DNA from: Croceivirga thetidis
GTDB taxonomy: Bacteria > Bacteroidota > Bacteroidia > Flavobacteriales > Flavobacteriaceae
Direction of reading: 5' to 3'
Assembly (NCBI RefSeq): GCF_012272815.1
Contig: NZ_JAAWWL010000002.1
Span: forward strand, 960,280-1,024,279
DNA: 64,000 nucleotides
Within the stretch, counting starts at the first letter, position 1; every line of letters starts with the position of its first letter. The notes beneath the pieces are model-generated. The model did no database searches. It saw nothing but the letters and a program-made list of their open reading frames with translations, and had not been told where the DNA came from. A program made the translations under genes and the position numbers. Shown here one piece after another: positions 4,822-39,401 of this stretch.

Positions 4822-7014
4822 GTGCCAACCAAAAAACTATTTAACGCTCTAAGGTTATTCGTATTCGTTTTACTTGAACTGGTAATCAGTCCAGAAGGTT
4901 TTGGTCAGCAAATCCAGCGTCCAGAGTTTCGTTCAGGGGATTTAACTGATGCTTTCAATTTTGATGGTGCACTTAGCGAAAGTGACTGGGCAAACGCACC
5001 TACCCTTAACGAACTAAAGACCACGGTTCCTGAAGAAGGTGGCGTACCCTCGCAGTCCACGATACTACAATTTCTTACCGATACACGTACTGTTGTTATT
5101 GGTATTCGCTGTAACGACACTAATCCTGATGGGATAATTCGCTTTTCTAAACTACGGGATGCCGATATTTCGGAAGAAGACCATGTTAAGATTGTTATTG
5201 ACCCTTTTCTTGACGGACAGTCTGGTTATATCTTGGCAGTGAATCCGTTGGCAGCACGTTACGATGCACTCGTATCAAATAGAGGGGAATCTGAAAATGA
5301 GGACTGGGATGCGGTTTGGGATGCCAAAACCCAAATCACTGAAGAAGGTTGGACAGCAGAAATTGTACTACCCATTCAAAGTATTGCCTTCAAAAAAGGC
5401 CTCACAAAGTGGGGTTTTAATGTAGAACGGAGAATTCAACGGAATTTAGAAACGATTCGTTGGGCAAATGTTAAGCGCGACCAGTTTTTTGCACAAACCA
5501 GTCGTGCGGGCCTGGTAACCGGACTGCCCAAATTCAATTATGGGGTTGGTCTGAACGTTAGACCTTCTTTGATTGCCAACGCCAATCAATTTGGTGCCAA
5601 TGGGGCAATGGTGGTGGACCCAAATTATAGTTTGGATGCCAATCAACGTATCGGACCAAACGTATTGGCCACCTTTACGGTAAATACGGACTTTGGTGAA
5701 ACCGAGGTCGATACACGTCAAACCAATTTAACACGCTTCCCTTTGTTCTTTCCAGAGAAACGGACCTTTTTTCTTGAAGGTTCCGACATTTTCGAATTTG
5801 GTTTTGGTACGGGTAGAAGCACCGTACTACCCTTTTTCAGCAGAAGAATTGGGCTTCGAAACAATGTTCAAATTCCGGTTATTGCCGGTACCAAGTTAAA
5901 TGGCCGAATCGGCAAGACCGCCTTTGGGGCACTCGGTATTCGAACCAATGACTTTGATTTGAACAATGAAAATTTTGGCGCCACCAACATGGGTGTTGTT
6001 CGCGTTCGTAGAAATGTATTAAAGGAAAGTTCAGTTGGTATTATTGCCTCTTCAGGTGACCCTCTGGGCCGTGAGGGGAGCTTTATGACCGGTGCGGATT
6101 TTACATTTCAGACTACGCGATTTAATGGGGATAAGAACTTTTTGGTCGGAGGTTGGGCCCTATTTACCGACAGGGCCGATTTATCAGGTGATCGCTCCGC
6201 TGCGGGATTTAAGATTGATTACCCGAATGACCGATGGGATATCGCCCTGACCTATGCGCGAATAGGCGAGGATTTTGACCCTTCTTTAGGCTTTGTACCC
6301 CGTCGAGGTGTAAATAGCTATCGTATTGGTGGTACCTTCGCGCCACGCCCTAAAGCCCCTTGGCTGCGTCAAATGTTCAATCAGTTGTTCATTACCTACA
6401 TCAACAACATTTCGGGACCCTGGCAATCATACAGTGTATTCACCGCCCCAATAAATTGGCGGTTGGAAAGTGGAGACCGTATTGAGGCGAATATTCGGCC
6501 TGTTGGTGAGAATATCGTACAGCCTTTTGAAATTTCTGATGGGGTAACCATTCCCGTTGGGGAGTATAATTTTATGCGCTATCGCTTAGAGGGTGAATTT
6601 GCCCGTAAACGGCGTTTAAGTGGTCAAGCAACCTGGTGGTTCGGAAGTTTTTATGATGGAAATCTAGACGAGTTTGAATTGACCCTAAACTGGAACCCGA
6701 GTGCCTTGTTGGCTTTTGAATTTAACGGCTTGCACAATCGGGCACGATTGCCCTTTGGCGACTTCAACCAGACCCTGGCAGGGCTACGAGTGCGCTTTAA
6801 TGTGACCTCTAACCTACAGTTGAACAGCTATCTGCAATACGACACCGATAGCCGGGTATTGGGGTTAAATGCACGTATTCATTGGATATTCTCCCCCTTA
6901 GGTGATGTGTTCTTGGTATACAACAACAATACCTTCAACGGGTTAAACCAACAACCATGGACATTACAAAACCGTCAGCTACTTCTGAAAGTGCGGTATA
7001 ATTTCCGATTGTAA
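4822..7014 (+). CDS. DUF5916 outer-membrane protein with CBM9-like N-terminal domain
   Basis: 730 residues from the GTG at 4822. After a signal peptide (hydrophobic FVFVLLELVI, cleavage near GFGQQ) there is a carbohydrate-binding-family-9-like beta-sandwich (about residues 35-215; DGALSESDWANAP near its start and EEGWTAEIVLPIQSIAF near its end). The remainder is DUF5916: DTRQTNLTRFPLFFPEKRTFFLEGSDIF is its best-conserved region, here near residues 295-325, followed by alternating amphipathic strands to a C-terminal LLLKVRYNFRL, an outer-membrane barrel-like ending. Such proteins are common in Bacteroidota and lack a known function; ligand binding at the cell surface is a reasonable inference. 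An in-frame TTG at 4792 is less likely as start because it abuts the predicted -7 element. Confidence 0.88.
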   Translation: MPTKKLFNALRLFVFVLLELVISPEGFGQQIQRPEFRSGDLTDAFNFDGALSESDWANAPTLNELKTTVPEEGGVPSQSTILQFLTDTRTVVIGIRCNDTNPDGIIRFSKLRDADISEEDHVKIVIDPFLDGQSGYILAVNPLAARYDALVSNRGESENEDWDAVWDAKTQITEEGWTAEIVLPIQSIAFKKGLTKWGFNVERRIQRNLETIRWANVKRDQFFAQTSRAGLVTGLPKFNYGVGLNVRPSLIANANQFGANGAMVVDPNYSLDANQRIGPNVLATFTVNTDFGETEVDTRQTNLTRFPLFFPEKRTFFLEGSDIFEFGFGTGRSTVLPFFSRRIGLRNNVQIPVIAGTKLNGRIGKTAFGALGIRTNDFDLNNENFGATNMGVVRVRRNVLKESSVGIIASSGDPLGREGSFMTGADFTFQTTRFNGDKNFLVGGWALFTDRADLSGDRSAAGFKIDYPNDRWDIALTYARIGEDFDPSLGFVPRRGVNSYRIGGTFAPRPKAPWLRQMFNQLFITYINNISGPWQSYSVFTAPINWRLESGDRIEANIRPVGENIVQPFEISDGVTIPVGEYNFMRYRLEGEFARKRRLSGQATWWFGSFYDGNLDEFELTLNWNPSALLAFEFNGLHNRARLPFGDFNQTLAGLRVRFNVTSNLQLNSYLQYDTDSRVLGLNARIHWIFSPLGDVFLVYNNNTFNGLNQQPWTLQNRQLLLKVRYNFRL

Positions 7015-7087
7015 AAGAATCATACACTATCAACAAACCTAGTTAACAACTCCAAATTTCCAGCTTCCAAATCACTGCACATTTTGA

Positions 7088-7095
7088 TAACTTTG
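7088..7095 (+). promoter_or_regulatory. -7 element TAACTTTG of purL
   Basis: TAACTTTG is an exact match to the Bacteroidota TAnnTTTG -7 consensus. It lies 12 bases before the ATG at 7108 and 21 before the ATG at 7117. No convincing TTTG is seen near -33. Confidence 0.5.
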
Positions 7096-7116
7096 CGTCT
7101 TTCCAAAATGGCTGAC

Positions 7117-10100
7117 ATGATTCACTTTTTCGGAGACCCCTCTAGTAAGGTTTTCGCACTACAGACCAACCAAGAACTTTCACAAAAAGACCAAGAAAAA
7201 CTTAGCTGGTTATTTGGCAACCAACCTCAACTAGAAGCGGCGTCACTCGACGCCTTTTTTGTTGGTCCTCGAGCAGCCATGGTCACCCCATGGAGCACCA
7301 ATGCTACTGAGATTACCCAAAATATGGGGGTACAGGGAATTATACGAATCGAGGAATATATAGCGGTTGAAGAAGCCTTTACCGACTTTGACCCTATGCT
7401 TTTTCAAAAGTATGCTGAACTCAATCAAGACATTTTTACAATTGCCGTGAGTCCAGAGCCCATTTTAGAAATTGACGACATCGCTGCCTATAATCAACAA
7501 GAAGGGCTGGCCCTGAGCCCAGAAGAAGTTACCTACCTAGAAGAATTGGCCCAACGATTGGGTCGCAAGCTCACAGACTCCGAGGTTTTTGGGTTTAGCC
7601 AAGTGAACTCAGAACACTGCCGCCATAAAATCTTTAATGGCACTTTTGTCATAGATGGTAAGGAAAAACCAACATCTTTATTTAAACTCATCAAAAAAAC
7701 TTCTCAGGAACATCCAAACGGCATTGTTTCGGCTTATAAAGACAATGTGGCCTTTATCAAAGGACCAAAAGCCGTGCAGTTTGCACCGAAGACTGCCGAT
7801 AAACCTGATTTCTACGAAGAACAAGAATTTGACTCCGTTTTATCGCTCAAAGCAGAGACGCACAACTTTCCAACCACTGTTGAACCTTTCAATGGCGCCG
7901 CAACAGGTTCAGGAGGTGAAATTCGTGACCGTCTTGCAGGTGGTAAGGGTAGTTTACCCTTGGCGGGCACCGCAGTTTATATGACGTCGTATTCGCGTCT
8001 TGAGCGAGATTTCGACTCCGCTCAATCCACGAAGTCTTGGGAAAATGCGTTTCCAGAAAGGGATTGGTTGTACCAAACCCCAATGGATATCCTCATAAAA
8101 GCAAGTAATGGTGCATCAGATTTTGGAAATAAGTTCGGACAACCCTTGATTTCCGGTTCCTTGCTCACTTTTGAACATGCCGAGGTCATTGAGCGTAGTC
8201 GAAATGCCGAAGGAACGAATTCCAATGAAGTCACTTCGACTCCGTTCAGTGACCAAGTTCGCCTTGGCTTCGACAAGGTCATCATGCTAGCAGGGGGCAT
8301 CGGATATGGCAAGGAAGAACAAGCCATAAAAGAAACACCCAACAAATCAGACAAAGTAGTGATTTTGGGTGGTGACAATTATCGTATTGGTATGGGTGGT
8401 GCTGCAGTTTCAAGTGCTGATACCGGTGAGTTTGAATCCGCGATAGAGTTGAATGCTGTACAACGAAGTAATCCTGAAATGCAAAAACGAGCGGCCAATG
8501 CCATTCGTGGTATGGTCGAATCAGAGGAGAACCCTATTGTTTCCATTCATGACCACGGAGCTGGCGGACATCTAAATTGCCTCTCAGAATTGGTCGAAGA
8601 AACTGGGGGTAAAATTGATTTGGACAAGTTGCCTATTGGTGACCCAACCCTTTCCAACAAAGAAATCATAGGCAACGAGAGCCAAGAACGCATGGGTCTT
8701 GTTATCGGACAAAAAGATATCGACCTCTTAAAAAAGATTGCAGACCGGGAGCGCTCTCCCCTATTTGAAGTTGGCGAAGTTACCGGTGACCACCGTTTTA
8801 CTTTTGAAAGCAGCACTACAGGCAACAAACCCATGGATTTGGAACTGGCCGATATGTTTGGCAGTTCACCAAAGACCATAATGGAAGATTCGAAGCTTAA
8901 TGTTCAGTATCGCGATGGTGAATACAGCCTTGAGCACTTTCATGATTATCTCGAAAACGTTTTACAATTGGAAGCCGTAGCTTGCAAAGATTGGCTGACC
9001 AACAAAGTTGACCGCTGTGTTGGTGGTCGTGTGGCCAAACAACAATGTGCTGGCCCACTTCAGCTACCATTGAACAACTGTGGAGTTATGGCTCTTGATT
9101 TTAAGGGAAAGGAAGGATTGGCAACCAGTATCGGTCACTCCCCTGTTTCAGGATTGATTGACCCCGTAGCCGGTAGTCGCAATAGTATCGCAGAAGCCTT
9201 GACCAATATCATCTGGGCACCCTTGGAAGAGGAATTGAAATCGGTTTCACTCTCCGCGAATTGGATGTGGCCGTGCAGAAACCCTGGCGAAGATGCGCGT
9301 TTGTACGATGCCGTAGAAGCCTGTTCAGAATTCGCAATCGAATTGGGCATCAACATTCCGACCGGTAAGGATTCTTTGAGTATGAAGCAGAAATACAAAG
9401 ATCAAGAGGTCATTGCTCCAGGTACGGTGGTTATCTCAGCAGCAGGACATTGCTCAGATTTAAAACAGGTGGTAGAACCTGTCTTGCAAAAAGATGGTGG
9501 GGATGTCTTTTATCTCAACCTCAGCAAAGACCAACATAAATTGGGTGGGTCCAGTTTCAACCAGGTGTTAAATGCGGTGGGTAGCGAAGCGCCTTCCGTT
9601 ATGGATTCTGCCTACTTCAAAAAAGCTTTTGATGCTATTCAAGCAGAAATCAAAGCTGGGAACATCATTTCAGGTCATGATATTGGTTCTGGTGGATTAA
9701 TAACCACCCTTTTGGAAATCTGTTTTGCGGACAACGATTTGGGGGCAGAACTGGATTTGACTGCCATTGGAGAGCCCGATACCATTAAACTTTTATTCTC
9801 AGAAAATATTGGTCTGGTATTACAAATGAATGATACCACCTCAGAACGATTGATGTCTGCAGGCATTGATTTGGTGAGGCTCGGCAGTCCAATTAAAGAA
9901 GGGACCTTGAAGTTAAAAAATCATGGTGTTGAAATGGGATTGAACATCGCTTCACTTCGTGATACTTGGTTTAAGACGTCATATCTGTTGGATGACAAAC
10001 AAACAGCCAATGGACTGGCCAAAGACCGATATGAAAACTATAAGAACCAGCCTTTAACATATACCTTTCCGGCTACGACTCCGCTCAGCCTCCCGGTCAT

Positions 10101-10875
10101 TGAAGGTAGTCGAAATGAACGGCCTAAAGCGGCTATTCTCCGCGAAAAAGGAAGCAACTCGGAGCGGGAAATGGCTCACGCCATGTATCTGGCTGGGTTC
10201 GATGTGAAGGATGTACATATGACCGATTTGATTTCTGGCCGGGAAGATTTAAAGGACATTCAATTCTTAGGAGCCGTTGGCGGATTCTCCAATTCTGATG
10301 TTTTGGGTTCTGCAAAAGGATGGGCCGGTGCCATCAAATACAACGAACGCGCCAACAAGGCCATTATGGATTTCTTTGCACGACCTGATACACTCTCCGT
10401 TGGAATCTGTAACGGTTGCCAACTCTTTATGGAGTTGGATTTGATTAATCCAGAGCATGGAGCACAACATGGCAAAATGACCTATAACGATTCAGGTAAG
10501 CACGAAAGCAATTTTACATCGGTAAAGATTCAGGAAAACAATTCCGTAATGCTATCGAATTTGGAGGGAGCAACCTTAGGGGTCTGGATTAGCCATGGGG
10601 AAGGAAAATTCGCCTTACCAATGAGCGAGGACAACTATGAGGTCGTTGCAAAATATGGGTATGCAGCATATCCCGCCAATCCCAATGGCAGTGATTATAA
10701 TATAGCCATGCTAACCGACAAAACCGGCCGCCATTTGGTAACCATGCCACATATTGAACGTAGCATTTTCCCTTGGAACTGGGCGCACTACCCAAAAGAT
10801 AGGAACGATACCATTTCCCCATGGATTCAAGCCTTTATTAATGCAAGGGAATGGGTTGAAAAGACCAATGCCTAA
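7117..10875 (+). CDS. purL: phosphoribosylformylglycinamidine synthase (large, single-chain)
   Basis: Catalyses the ATP- and glutamine-dependent conversion of FGAR to FGAM, step four of purine synthesis, in the cytosol. 1252 residues, long-type PurL: N-terminal PurS-like domain, a linker with SEVFGFSQVNSEHCRHKIF, two AIRS-like ATP-binding halves (including SLKAETHNFPTTVEPFNGAA and GGDNYRIGMGGAAVSS), and a C-terminal class I glutaminase domain with nucleophile Cys1098 (GICNGCQLF) and the His of MPHIERSIFPWNW. I chose ATG 7117 (MIHFFGD), usual for relatives as I recall; ATG 7108 is possible. The gene is intact but carries three repeat-derived segments in frame (near residues 297-304, 356-380 and 986-1001), all in places where insertions appear tolerated. 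It appears monocistronic. Confidence 0.95.
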   Translation: MIHFFGDPSSKVFALQTNQELSQKDQEKLSWLFGNQPQLEAASLDAFFVGPRAAMVTPWSTNATEITQNMGVQGIIRIEEYIAVEEAFTDFDPMLFQKYAELNQDIFTIAVSPEPILEIDDIAAYNQQEGLALSPEEVTYLEELAQRLGRKLTDSEVFGFSQVNSEHCRHKIFNGTFVIDGKEKPTSLFKLIKKTSQEHPNGIVSAYKDNVAFIKGPKAVQFAPKTADKPDFYEEQEFDSVLSLKAETHNFPTTVEPFNGAATGSGGEIRDRLAGGKGSLPLAGTAVYMTSYSRLERDFDSAQSTKSWENAFPERDWLYQTPMDILIKASNGASDFGNKFGQPLISGSLLTFEHAEVIERSRNAEGTNSNEVTSTPFSDQVRLGFDKVIMLAGGIGYGKEEQAIKETPNKSDKVVILGGDNYRIGMGGAAVSSADTGEFESAIELNAVQRSNPEMQKRAANAIRGMVESEENPIVSIHDHGAGGHLNCLSELVEETGGKIDLDKLPIGDPTLSNKEIIGNESQERMGLVIGQKDIDLLKKIADRERSPLFEVGEVTGDHRFTFESSTTGNKPMDLELADMFGSSPKTIMEDSKLNVQYRDGEYSLEHFHDYLENVLQLEAVACKDWLTNKVDRCVGGRVAKQQCAGPLQLPLNNCGVMALDFKGKEGLATSIGHSPVSGLIDPVAGSRNSIAEALTNIIWAPLEEELKSVSLSANWMWPCRNPGEDARLYDAVEACSEFAIELGINIPTGKDSLSMKQKYKDQEVIAPGTVVISAAGHCSDLKQVVEPVLQKDGGDVFYLNLSKDQHKLGGSSFNQVLNAVGSEAPSVMDSAYFKKAFDAIQAEIKAGNIISGHDIGSGGLITTLLEICFADNDLGAELDLTAIGEPDTIKLLFSENIGLVLQMNDTTSERLMSAGIDLVRLGSPIKEGTLKLKNHGVEMGLNIASLRDTWFKTSYLLDDKQTANGLAKDRYENYKNQPLTYTFPATTPLSLPVIEGSRNERPKAAILREKGSNSEREMAHAMYLAGFDVKDVHMTDLISGREDLKDIQFLGAVGGFSNSDVLGSAKGWAGAIKYNERANKAIMDFFARPDTLSVGICNGCQLFMELDLINPEHGAQHGKMTYNDSGKHESNFTSVKIQENNSVMLSNLEGATLGVWISHGEGKFALPMSEDNYEVVAKYGYAAYPANPNGSDYNIAMLTDKTGRHLVTMPHIERSIFPWNWAHYPKDRNDTISPWIQAFINAREWVEKTNA
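8000..8025 (+). repeat. palindromic repeat copy 1 inside purL
   Basis: TTGAGCG (8000-8006) and CGCTCAA (8019-8025) are inverted copies around a 12-base centre that itself contains TTTCGACTC. The second half, TTCGACTCCGCTCAA, is shared almost exactly with the right arm of copy 2 and left arm of copy 3. Read in frame it encodes LERDFDSAQS. The frame differs from that used by copies 2 and 3. Confidence 0.75.
8184..8254 (+). repeat. palindromic repeat copy 2 inside purL (full element)
   Basis: Left arm 8184-8206 (core ATTGAGCGTAGTCGAAATG) and right arm 8232-8254 (core CTTCGACTCCGTTCAGTGAC) are inverted repeats: 19 of 23 positions pair, and two of the four mismatches would be G-U in RNA. The 25-base centre separates them. 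In frame it adds about 25 residues between FEHAE and RLGFDKV, starting with VIERSRN and ending TSTPFSD. Confidence 0.85.
10074..10117 (+). repeat. palindromic repeat copy 3 inside purL (arms in reverse order)
   Basis: The arm at 10095-10117 matches the left arm of copy 2 at 21 of 23 bases (GTAGTCGAAATG shared exactly). The arm at 10074-10088 (CGACTCCGCTCAG) matches the other arm type. Here the CGACTCC arm comes first, the opposite of copy 2, and only 4-6 bases separate the arms. In frame it encodes ATTPLSLPVIEGSRNE, between the second synthase half and the glutaminase domain. Confidence 0.75.
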
Positions 10876-10951
10876 TTGATATCAACACGGTTTACTTGTC
10901 CACATGGTTTACAAGGTGTTTTCGATTACCTTTAAGGTAAAACGAGAACAA

Positions 10952-11596
10952 ATGAAAACACCGCTCAACCGAAGAAAATTTATTCAGAACAGTTCACTAT
11001 TGGCCATGGGAGCAGTTTCGGCACCACTCATGGGGGCTTCTTCATTACCGATTGCCAGTGCTTTACCAACTTTTGAGAACATGAATATTATCGGCCCGAG
11101 GGAGGGATTTTCTCCAAATATTGGAACCTTGGTTTCAATGATGAACTGGATGCGGGAAGTTATGCTTAGTCCGGTTCGAGGAATGAGCATTTCTGACCTT
11201 GACTATTTAATCGATGACAATGCCAATACAATTGGGGCAATGTTAATGCATTTGGCCGCTACTGAACGTTTTTATCAAATCAATACGTTTGACAATAAAA
11301 AATGGGGGGACTTTCCTGAAGCAGATTTAATAAAGTTTGGTGCAGCCTCTATGCTCGGTGACCGAGGCAGGGCCGAAATCAAAGGAAAACCATTGGATTA
11401 CTACCTCGAAGAAATGACCACTATTCGTGAAAACACCCTGTCAGAATTCAAGAAAAGGGATGATGATTGGTTGTTCTCGGTGGATGGCGAATTTCCATGG
11501 GGTCCGACGAACAACTACTGTAAATGGTTTCATGTTTGCGAACATGAATCGAATCACAATGGGGTGTTCAAATTCTTAAAAAGTCGGATTGTTTAA
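10952..11596 (+). CDS. exported DinB/YfiT-like putative metal-binding protein
   Basis: 214 residues from the ATG at 10952 (MKTPLNRRKFIQ). The N-terminus carries a twin-arginine motif (NRRKFIQNS) followed by a weakly hydrophobic segment (LLAMGAVSAPLMGASSL), so Tat export is likely. The rest is a four-helix DinB-superfamily bundle: a first His in MLMHLAATERFY and a second and third in the HVCEHESNH stretch near the C-terminus, giving the usual three-histidine metal site. Cytosolic relatives include thiol transferases (bacillithiol, mycothiol) and hydrolases. An exported version is unusual but recurs in Bacteroidota. An upstream in-frame ATG at 10904 would bury the Tat motif behind 16 extra residues, so I rejected it. 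Function unknown. Confidence 0.75.
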   Translation: MKTPLNRRKFIQNSSLLAMGAVSAPLMGASSLPIASALPTFENMNIIGPREGFSPNIGTLVSMMNWMREVMLSPVRGMSISDLDYLIDDNANTIGAMLMHLAATERFYQINTFDNKKWGDFPEADLIKFGAASMLGDRGRAEIKGKPLDYYLEEMTTIRENTLSEFKKRDDDWLFSVDGEFPWGPTNNYCKWFHVCEHESNHNGVFKFLKSRIV

Positions 11597-11611
11597 ATGT
11601 GGTAACCAAAA

Positions 11612-38063: not shown

Positions 38064-39401
38064 ATGAAAAAAATACTACTACTACTTATTGTAACAAGTG
38101 TTTGGAAGACACATGCTCAAACAGACTTACGATTATATGACATTATTGATTCCATCTCAGCAGAACGAATCGGACAAGATGTAGCGACCCTAGCAAATTT
38201 TGGAACAAGACATACATTAAGTGACACTATTTCTAAAACTAGGGGAATCGGTGCCGCCAGAAGATGGATAAAAGCTGAATTCGATAAAATATCCTCAGAA
38301 TGTGGGAATTGTTTAGAGGTTTTCTATCAAAAAGACCTGGTAAAGGCAGGGGATGAAAATCGAAGGATTACCAAAGACGTTTGGGTGGTCAATGTTGTTG
38401 CTATTAAAAGGGGAACGAAACACCCGAATAGATTCATCATCATGAGCGGTGATATTGATTCTCGGGTAAGTGACCCTAATGACTTCACCTCAGATTCACC
38501 AGGAGCCAATGATAATGCAAGTGGTATGGCCGGGACTATTGAGGCGGCCAGGGTGCTTTCAAAATATAACTTTGAAAGTAGTATCATTTTTGTTGGGTTA
38601 TCAGGAGAGGAGCAAGGTTTGTTCGGAGGCAAAGGCCTTGCCGCTTATGCTAAAAAAGAAGGTTGGGATATCGTTGGTATTTTAAACAATGATATGATAG
38701 GGAATATCAAAGGAGTCGATGGGGTAATAAGTAATCGCGATTTTAGAATTTTTTCCGAACCAGTTCCTCCAACCGAAACAGAACAGCAGCGTAGACTTAG
38801 AAGGTTTTATGGTGGAGAGGTTGACGGTATATCAAGGCAACTCGCTAGATATATTTACAAAACAACAAAAACCTATATGCCAGAAATGAACCCTATGTTG
38901 ATTTATCGATTGGATAGATTCGGACGTGGAGGACATCATAGACCATTTAATGATGCGGGCTTTGCAGGGGTGCGAATAATGGAAGCCCATGAGAACTATA
39001 CCCAACAGCATCAAGATATTCGCGTTGAGGATGGCATTGCCTATGGCGATGTTTTAGAGCACGTAAATTTCGACTACGCCAAAAAGTTGACCGCTGTAAA
39101 TGCAATTTCGCTAGCCTCAATTGCTTGGGCCCCTCCCGCTCCCACCGAAGTCAAAATCGGAGGTATTGTAAGACCTTCGGCAGCACTACGATGGCAAAAA
39201 GCTGAAGGAGCTAAAGGATATAAAGTATACTGGCGAGATACCACCAGTCCAACTTGGGATAACTTTATCTATGTTGGTGATTTTTCTGGTAAGACTTTAG
39301 ATGGTATTGTTATTGATAACTACTTTTTCGGAGTAGCTTCTGTGGGACCTGACGGACATGAAAGTCCAGTAGTATTTCCATCGGGCGTTTTTAGAAATTA
39401 A
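38064..39401 (+). CDS. exported M28-family metallopeptidase
   Basis: 445 residues. Signal peptide (1-18, KTHAQTD). M28 catalytic domain about residues 60-330: metal-ligand motifs SGDIDSR, GANDNASGMAG (bridging Asp), LSGEEQGLFGG (catalytic Glu and ligand Glu), LNNDMIGN (Asp) and ENYTQQHQD (His). The first motif has Asp where most M28 enzymes have His (HxD), so one zinc ligand would differ. C-terminal ~90 residues (PAPTEVKIGGIVRPSAALRW) form a fibronectin-III-like domain. Expected to be an aminopeptidase or carboxypeptidase in the periplasm or outside. It begins right after the channel gene's stop and ends 2 bases before the M1 peptidase. Confidence 0.85.
   Translation: MKKILLLLIVTSVWKTHAQTDLRLYDIIDSISAERIGQDVATLANFGTRHTLSDTISKTRGIGAARRWIKAEFDKISSECGNCLEVFYQKDLVKAGDENRRITKDVWVVNVVAIKRGTKHPNRFIIMSGDIDSRVSDPNDFTSDSPGANDNASGMAGTIEAARVLSKYNFESSIIFVGLSGEEQGLFGGKGLAAYAKKEGWDIVGILNNDMIGNIKGVDGVISNRDFRIFSEPVPPTETEQQRRLRRFYGGEVDGISRQLARYIYKTTKTYMPEMNPMLIYRLDRFGRGGHHRPFNDAGFAGVRIMEAHENYTQQHQDIRVEDGIAYGDVLEHVNFDYAKKLTAVNAISLASIAWAPPAPTEVKIGGIVRPSAALRWQKAEGAKGYKVYWRDTTSPTWDNFIYVGDFSGKTLDGIVIDNYFFGVASVGPDGHESPVVFPSGVFRN

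Follow-up and report, generated by a model that had tools for sequence, protein, structure and literature searches.

The purL gene of Croceivirga thetidis, which encodes a phosphoribosylformylglycinamidine synthase of the large single-chain type, lies on a 64,000-nucleotide stretch of contig NZ_JAAWWL010000002.1 (hereafter the window). Three of its segments are, with a probability of about 85%, copies of a dispersed hairpin repeat of the Bacteroidota that resembles a repetitive extragenic palindrome (REP) and acts as a spreading DNA element. A first-pass annotation of the window had proposed that a palindromic repeat colonised purL three times in frame, and had attributed this to a mobile nucleotide sequence rather than to duplication of a peptide. 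That attribution is supported by copies in three reading frames within the gene and by further copies elsewhere in the genome and in other genomes of the family and phylum. What is directly observed is the dispersal, a covarying stem, a one-sided tag in some of the copies, insertions relative to empty sites, the return of the repeat to PurL in relatives, and nested and tandem units.

Repeat copies within the purL gene

The two sequence modules singled out by the first-pass annotation are present in purL where it had placed them, in inverted orientation, and their best common unit is the 14-nt core TGAGCGNAGTCGAA, of which the gene holds five copies (0–2 mismatches) at three sites (Table 1). 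These copies occupy both orientations and three reading frames, and the open reading frame (ORF) is unbroken, as had been claimed. At up to two mismatches the core is found six times in the window, as against a mean of 0.76 and a maximum of three in 100 shuffles. The sixth match, at 39069–39082, has two mismatches, lies within an unrelated 445-aa ORF where it is read NFDYAKK, and is probably due to chance; the earlier statement that the 64 kb contain no further copy therefore holds for good copies, if not for this one.

Table 1. Position of purL and of the repeat units within it (window coordinates)
Feature	Position	Strand	Details
purL, phosphoribosylformylglycinamidine synthase, large single-chain type	7108..10875	+	ATG at 7108; 1255 aa; intact
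Core copies in purL	8011-8024(-), 8190-8203(+), 8235-8248(-), 10074-10087(-), 10101-10114(+)		≤2 mismatches
Site 1, single hairpin unit	8008..8027	-	GATTGAGCGGAGTCGAAATC (- strand letters); read FDSAQ
Site 2, left unit	8184..8206	+	GGTCATTGAGCGTAGTCGAAATG; read VIERSRN
Site 2, right unit, inverted	8230..8254	-	GGTCACTGAACGGAGTCGAAGTGAC (- strand letters); read TSTPFSDQ
Site 3, left unit	10071..10090	-	GGCTGAGCGGAGTCGTAGCC (- strand letters); read ATTPLS; outer stem GGCT/AGCC
Site 3, right unit	10094..10122	+	CGGTCATTGAAGGTAGTCGAAATGAACGG; read VIEGSRNER

The inverted-repeat arrangement first described applies to sites 2 and 3, each of which has two inverted units, and not to site 1, which has one. 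The site 2 units form an inverted dimer of approximately 70 nt (8184–8254), and the right unit of site 3 directly precedes the glutamine amidotransferase domain (Pfam GATase_5, from residue 1005). The insert at site 1 measures 21 nt and is placed by alignment at about 8011–8031. As had been noted, it is read in a frame of its own: FDSAQ, as against ERSRN/EGSRN for the plus-strand arms and STPFS/TTPLS for the minus-strand arms of sites 2 and 3. Neither chance nor duplication of a peptide can account for the three segments. No second PurL match was found in the C. thetidis genome, and an Rfam search of positions 7000–11600 at E≤1 returned a single match, far under its gathering score and away from all three sites.

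Anatomy and dispersal of the repeat

The unit was characterised in 107 copies from 100 loci, comprising 26 of the 30 loci of a family scan, 14 loci of the C. thetidis genome and 60 stretches from eight genomes that were not chosen at random (G207, G033, G175, G034, G044, G193, G130 and G163). Copies with an identical 73-nt context were reduced to one, and those less than 30 nt from the end of a locus were excluded. The unit spans about 20–24 nt and consists of a stem of 3–5 bp, variable but complementary, around the fixed core; the base following TGAGCGNAGTCGA is A in 105 of the 107 copies. In one register the positions flanking the core pair in 95, 88, 83 and 60% of copies, compared with 49, 30, 33 and 38% after permutation. 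Positions farther out are close to the permuted values, as are most positions in the other registers, where the biggest excess is 0.46 versus 0.28. Moreover, the stem letters vary from copy to copy while the pairing persists. Unbroken pairing beyond the 14-nt core extends for 3–5 bp in 75 copies, for 0–2 bp in 30 and for 6 bp in two. The 5' consensus of the unit is TGTCA, and an NGTC tag occupies positions −8 to −5 in 35 copies (TGTC in 30 of them) and the mirror position in none. When folded as single-stranded DNA and compared with shuffles, site 2 of the window (z −3.6) and a copy in a DNA ligase gene (z −4.3) stand out, and the fold of site 1 is moderate (z −1.9; 8 of 200 shuffles equally good).

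A unit may stand alone, be repeated in tandem or form one half of an inverted dimer. Where neighbours in the sample are no more than 110 nt apart, their arrangement is +− in eight cases, −+ in seven, −− in five and ++ in one. Among the phylum matches listed, at least 20 +− pairs chosen by eye are spaced 34–43 or 61–71 nt, and −+ pairs are few, two being seen by eye in genome G311 (untallied). Locus L107 holds an array of cores at exact 24-nt spacing (about positions 2095–2205), and by eye the same locus has a core in a DNA methylase-like frame.

The genome of C. thetidis contains 14 exact copies of a 13-nt core, and one match to the reversed control. Of these, purL holds two and the ATP-dependent DNA ligase gene one, in frame (VERSRNDENVTSTSLSD); another is within a UPF0004/radical SAM gene, and none of the remaining ten was scored as internal to a long ORF. 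The pattern CATTGAGCGNAGTCGAAATG, with up to three mismatches, gives nine matches in this genome, four of them in purL, and none for its control. The exact 13-nt core is present in 157 of 249 family genomes; the 25 richest of these total 943 cores, against 20 for the reversed control over all 249 (both totals, and the choice of the 25 core-rich genomes, were summed or read from the family table). At the level of the phylum, 54 of 158 genomes carry the exact 14-nt core, in up to 192 copies. That maximum belongs to G259, a 3.9-Mb genome from another family of the same class. The wider search for which the first-pass annotation had called thus recovered copies at all three levels.

No ORF of at least 150 aa runs across 73 of the 107 copies; the other 34 are in long ORFs, and 27 are internal to 19 ORFs representing 18 genes (two ORF pieces belong to one purL). 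The host genes include purL, DNA ligase, topB-like, bioF-like, UPF0004/radical SAM, RND, HsdR, HsdS and alpha-2-macroglobulin-like genes. Of the six ways to read the core, five contain no stop codon, and all five are used by the internal copies (ERSR 8, SxVE 7, STxLS 7, FDxAQ 4 and RLRS 1), so that an in-frame insertion would usually just add peptide to the host protein. Internal copies in more than one genus were found in purL (the window, L245 and L279/L280), in the topB-like gene (L277 and L322) and in the bioF-like gene (L308 and L314). The purL copies recovered through core sampling come from G163 (L245) and G207 (L279 and L280), so that these two genomes still yield purL, among 17 other genes, when the window, itself selected because of its purL, is excluded; purL represents about 0.1% of coding length, assuming approximately 3.3 Mb of coding sequence. 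The topB-like and bioF-like genes are ORF fragments that score under the curated NCBIfam cut-offs, and because each carries its copy at one place and in one frame in both genera, these copies may be inherited; alternatively, the two genes may be further landing sites.

Some copies are embedded in larger hairpins. An outer paired run of at least 7 surrounds 8 of the 73 copies outside long ORFs (permuted mean 1.2, maximum 4) and 2 of the 34 coding copies (permuted mean 0.5, maximum 3). At two loci of the C. thetidis genome (L268 at C2:952254 and L274 at C3:172176) the unit forms the tip of a terminator-like hairpin that is followed by a run of T, and the unit may therefore have been taken up into terminators.

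Turnover of the purL loops among relatives

The best 80 of 507 relatives, together with the window, gave 81 purL genes. Three of nine further genus genes brought the set to 84; the other six were set aside as duplicates (partial-gene match) and fragment L166 was excluded. With up to two mismatches, the core is present in the site 1 region of one gene, that of the window (control 0.14), in the site 2 loop of 12 (control 0.50) and in the site 3 loop of 19 (control 0.58), the controls being random segments of the same genes that were free to overlap the loops and are therefore conservative. The longer palindrome behaves similarly: in the 81-gene set its best match reaches at least 17 of 23 positions in 23 genes, with 19 of these matches at site 2 or 3 and four elsewhere.

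Site 1 is a 21-nt insertion seen in none of the relatives examined, and most genus relatives have no insert at this place. A different 21-nt insert is present there in three genus genomes (L158, L159 and L160; DPADPLQG region), L073 has five extra residues nearby, and the other aligned relatives have no insert of such size. Nowhere among the aligned PurL relatives do the same residues occur at all three places over diverged DNA.

In relatives, sites 2 and 3 are empty, hold other content, or carry copies that differ in orientation and frame. On a FastTree tree built with the loops removed, presence of the core changes state at least 12 times at site 2 and at least 14 times at site 3, or 12 and 16 times when orientation and frame are scored as well; gain and loss are inseparable in these counts, which include decay past the threshold, and 29 of 81 inner branches are weak. 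Individual genes illustrate the range of states. At site 2, L157 carries an inverted pair that has diverged; the purL of L163 holds three tandem 24-nt units. In the clade of L034, L042 and L043, whose members are 95–96% identical, the site 3 unit differs in orientation and stem; in L042, as in L029, a second unit is nested in the centre of an L034-like unit, making the loop 24 nt longer than that of L034. These comparisons mark sites 2 and 3 as loops in which copies have landed and turned over repeatedly across the family. Therefore, while all three sites do hold copies, the phrase 'colonised three times' is too loose. Among closely related genes the same loops occur both empty and filled, with units nested, inverted or in tandem, and together they amount to a time series, provided by nature, of selfish DNA turning into protein.

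The site 3 loop of L028 contains a different, G-rich repeat-like stretch that is read LTPSPLGGGREGAPK, as if the loop might take in other short repeats too. An AlphaFold model of the site 3 fragment (mean pLDDT 70), built on a shallow alignment, suggests that this site is in a linker: residues ~980–1006 are coil, mostly of low confidence, ahead of the amidotransferase domain. The model of the fragment with sites 1 and 2 was unusable (mean pLDDT 45). PurL homologues with solved structures are 1t3t and 9n9w.

An alternative account of these loops, possible but on balance improbable, is local copying without transposition, in which an old purL hairpin spreads within or near the gene by slippage, template switching or gene conversion. 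The tandem units of 24 and 27 nt would fit such copying, as would stems that remain paired while their letters change, since gene conversion and its like also keep stems perfect. The GAGGCNNCTCGAA variant of the unit has three matches in genome G256, all in purL, and four in G257, two in purL and a third ~6 kb away; G253 has two and the other eight genomes none. Because this variant concentrates in or near purL, local copying is favoured in G256 and G257. The idea that the purL of each species carries its own genome-wide variant is not supported by this distribution. However, local copying does not explain why the same core is spread over the genome and the phylum, and under a wider pattern G257 has copies with 0–1 mismatches on another contig as well. 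Nor does it sit easily with site 1, a novelty of its lineage that uses a different frame and is separated from site 2 by about 160 nt, or with the changed site 3 units among the near-identical genes of the L034 clade.

Proposed mobilisation and relation to known repeats

If the purL segments are copies of a mobile hairpin, the units would have travelled as single-stranded hairpins with the help of a trans-acting enzyme, RAYT-like (REP-associated tyrosine transposase) or other, and hairpin tips would be the preferred targets. Most of the sampled copies lie outside long ORFs, some at the tips of terminator-like hairpins, and one unit can nest in another. A minority are in genes, where the surviving copies lengthen the gene by a multiple of three bases and usually contribute only peptide. 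In PurL the survivors cluster in loops of variable length among relatives, and for this reason selection appears to tolerate them; sites 2 and 3 have changed state repeatedly. A fuller picture, tentative and somewhat less likely than not, combines these steps: Bacteroidota-wide mobile hairpins, with the fixed core and a free covarying stem, would have two PurL loops as recurrent landing sites, would insert into hairpin tips (terminators and their own copies) by means of an undescribed enzyme, and would supply peptide in several frames. If so, the element keeps feeding new peptide into a living housekeeping protein.

Several observations weigh against a mobile element. Movement of the unit was not seen here, and no mobilising enzyme was linked to it. 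No target-site duplication was evident by eye at sites 1–3 and none was established. None of the 14 own-genome copies has the NGTC tag at its exact place (GGTC is nearby in four), and the one-sided tag thus holds for other genomes and not for that of the window. Site 3 of the window folds no better than shuffled sequence (z −0.8; 43 of 200 as good). The ambiguity of the tree counts and the concentration of the GAGGCNNCTCGAA variant point the same way, as do the results for the transposase family PF01797: no match in the C. thetidis genome, none in 8 of the 25 core-rich genomes, and, for 30 PF01797 loci, not one exact core in the flanking sequence retrieved, although this set is not exhaustive and may include IS200/IS605 elements.

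The textbook candidate for moving REPs is a RAYT-like enzyme. A strict form of this explanation, in which a Y1 tyrosine transposase moves the units in trans as in REPs and REPINs (REP doublets forming hairpins), is doubtful here. In its favour are the hairpin, which some copies combine with a one-sided tag, the spaced +− pairs, and an enrichment of PF01797 in genomes that carry an 18-mer of the repeat: matches at E≤1e-10 occur in 16 of 36 such genomes versus 37 of 213 without it (p=7e-4), and any match in 20 of 36 versus 76 of 213 (p=0.03). Similarly, 17 of the 25 core-rich genomes have a PF01797 match, compared with 79 of the 224 others. Neither the size and kinship of the genomes nor the quality of their assemblies was controlled for in the 18-mer association, and the PF01797 family takes in IS200/IS605 transposases as well. 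In addition, Bacteroidetes RAYTs of subclass 2.6 are reported (PMC6006769) to be flanked by atypical structures that are found elsewhere in the genome. However, the tag is NGTC and not GTAG, and three of the 30 PF01797 loci had a hit to the core at 2–3 mismatches whereas eight had a hit to the reversed control. PF01797 is thus commoner in core-bearing genomes, yet neither linked nor required.

That a single ancestral insertion was inherited and has since decayed, with no repeated insertion, is very unlikely. The site 2 insert of Maribacter relatives does look ancestral and decayed (ASTPF...SASLSHRR), and the shared topB-like and bioF-like copies may be inherited; this account holds for part of the family. 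As a full account of purL it is contradicted by the opposite orientations and frames at one loop, the empty loops of close relatives, the nested unit and the restriction of site 1 to the window. Still less probable is a selected short signal (for uptake, chi-like, or a protein-binding site) that arose by point mutation and is often paired at terminators: a fixed core in variable surroundings and copies at terminator-like tips would suit it, but the unit arrives as a 21–24 nt insertion with covarying stems, copies per genome range from 0 to 192, and those in long ORFs are a minority. Ordinary protein-level variation of the loops, or chance, can be dismissed, since, although the loops at sites 2 and 3 vary naturally, the shuffle, reversed-pattern and same-gene controls refute it and the same DNA is read in differing frames.

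The dispersed hairpin repeat so favoured is REP-like in the wide sense, being a hairpin of 20–40 nt that is dispersed and mostly intergenic, with a low copy number (14) in its own genome. It does not fit either of the two REP classes, GTAG and CGTC. Like the GTAG REPs and REPINs with their RAYTs, it occurs as dispersed hairpins, single or in inverted dimers, with preferred spacing; unlike them it has no GTAG tag, and none of the 30 PF01797 loci is flanked by the element.

CGTC REPs are described in PMC3733652 as lacking a known dedicated transposase and are reported in five phyla, Bacteroidetes among them; TGTC is named as a variant of their tag, which may also be CCTC. Such REPs resemble the present unit in being short hairpins with in-frame intragenic copies, and may share with it an unpaired one-sided tag (here partial) and the formation of inverted dimers, of which the head-head type predominates in that class. 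However, their stem is 8–9 bp long and starts with A-T pairs, and their loop is 4–5 nt, whereas the present unit has 3–5 bp around a fixed 14-nt core. Their CCA tail is found in only 3 of the 107 copies, and CGTC within the wider 5' stretch in one. In the present unit, moreover, it is the core that stays constant and the stem that changes. Since stem, loop and tail all differ, the unit was not filed in the CGTC class.

Intragenic REPs as such are already published. According to PMC3733652, GTAG and CGTC REPs have in-frame intragenic copies in several species, two Xanthomonas recB genes are hit at about one site, and O. terrae, in which GTAG REPs predominate, has an intragenic copy in a DNA ligase gene; the present repeat is a variant of that kind.

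The first-pass annotation had likened the purL copies to Rickettsia palindromic elements (RPEs), and the analogy is apt. RPE-1 and others insert in frame into genes for housekeeping proteins, and the present unit likewise has in-frame copies inside genes of known function. The unit is shorter and from another phylum, and is likened to RPEs by behaviour; it works both like a REP and like an RPE. Indeed, RPE-4 and RPE-6 are counted in PMC3733652 as CGTC REPs with intragenic copies. Miniature inverted-repeat transposable elements of Coxiella, which are small repeats, are also said (PMC5896051) to bear on protein evolution; by comparison, no parent insertion sequence was seen for the present unit, although no search aimed at one was made. 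As the first-pass annotation had supposed, no description of the repeat in Flavobacteriia was found in open-licence full text, including a search with the letters of the motif, among the matches listed.

The existence of a hairpin with a variable stem and an invariant core raises the question of what copies it, and G259, with the most cores, is a good place to seek the mobilising enzyme. For the annotation of Bacteroidota genomes the repeat provides a concrete motif: a protein that contains the peptide ERSRN, STPLS, FDSAQ or LSAVE may have received an insertion.

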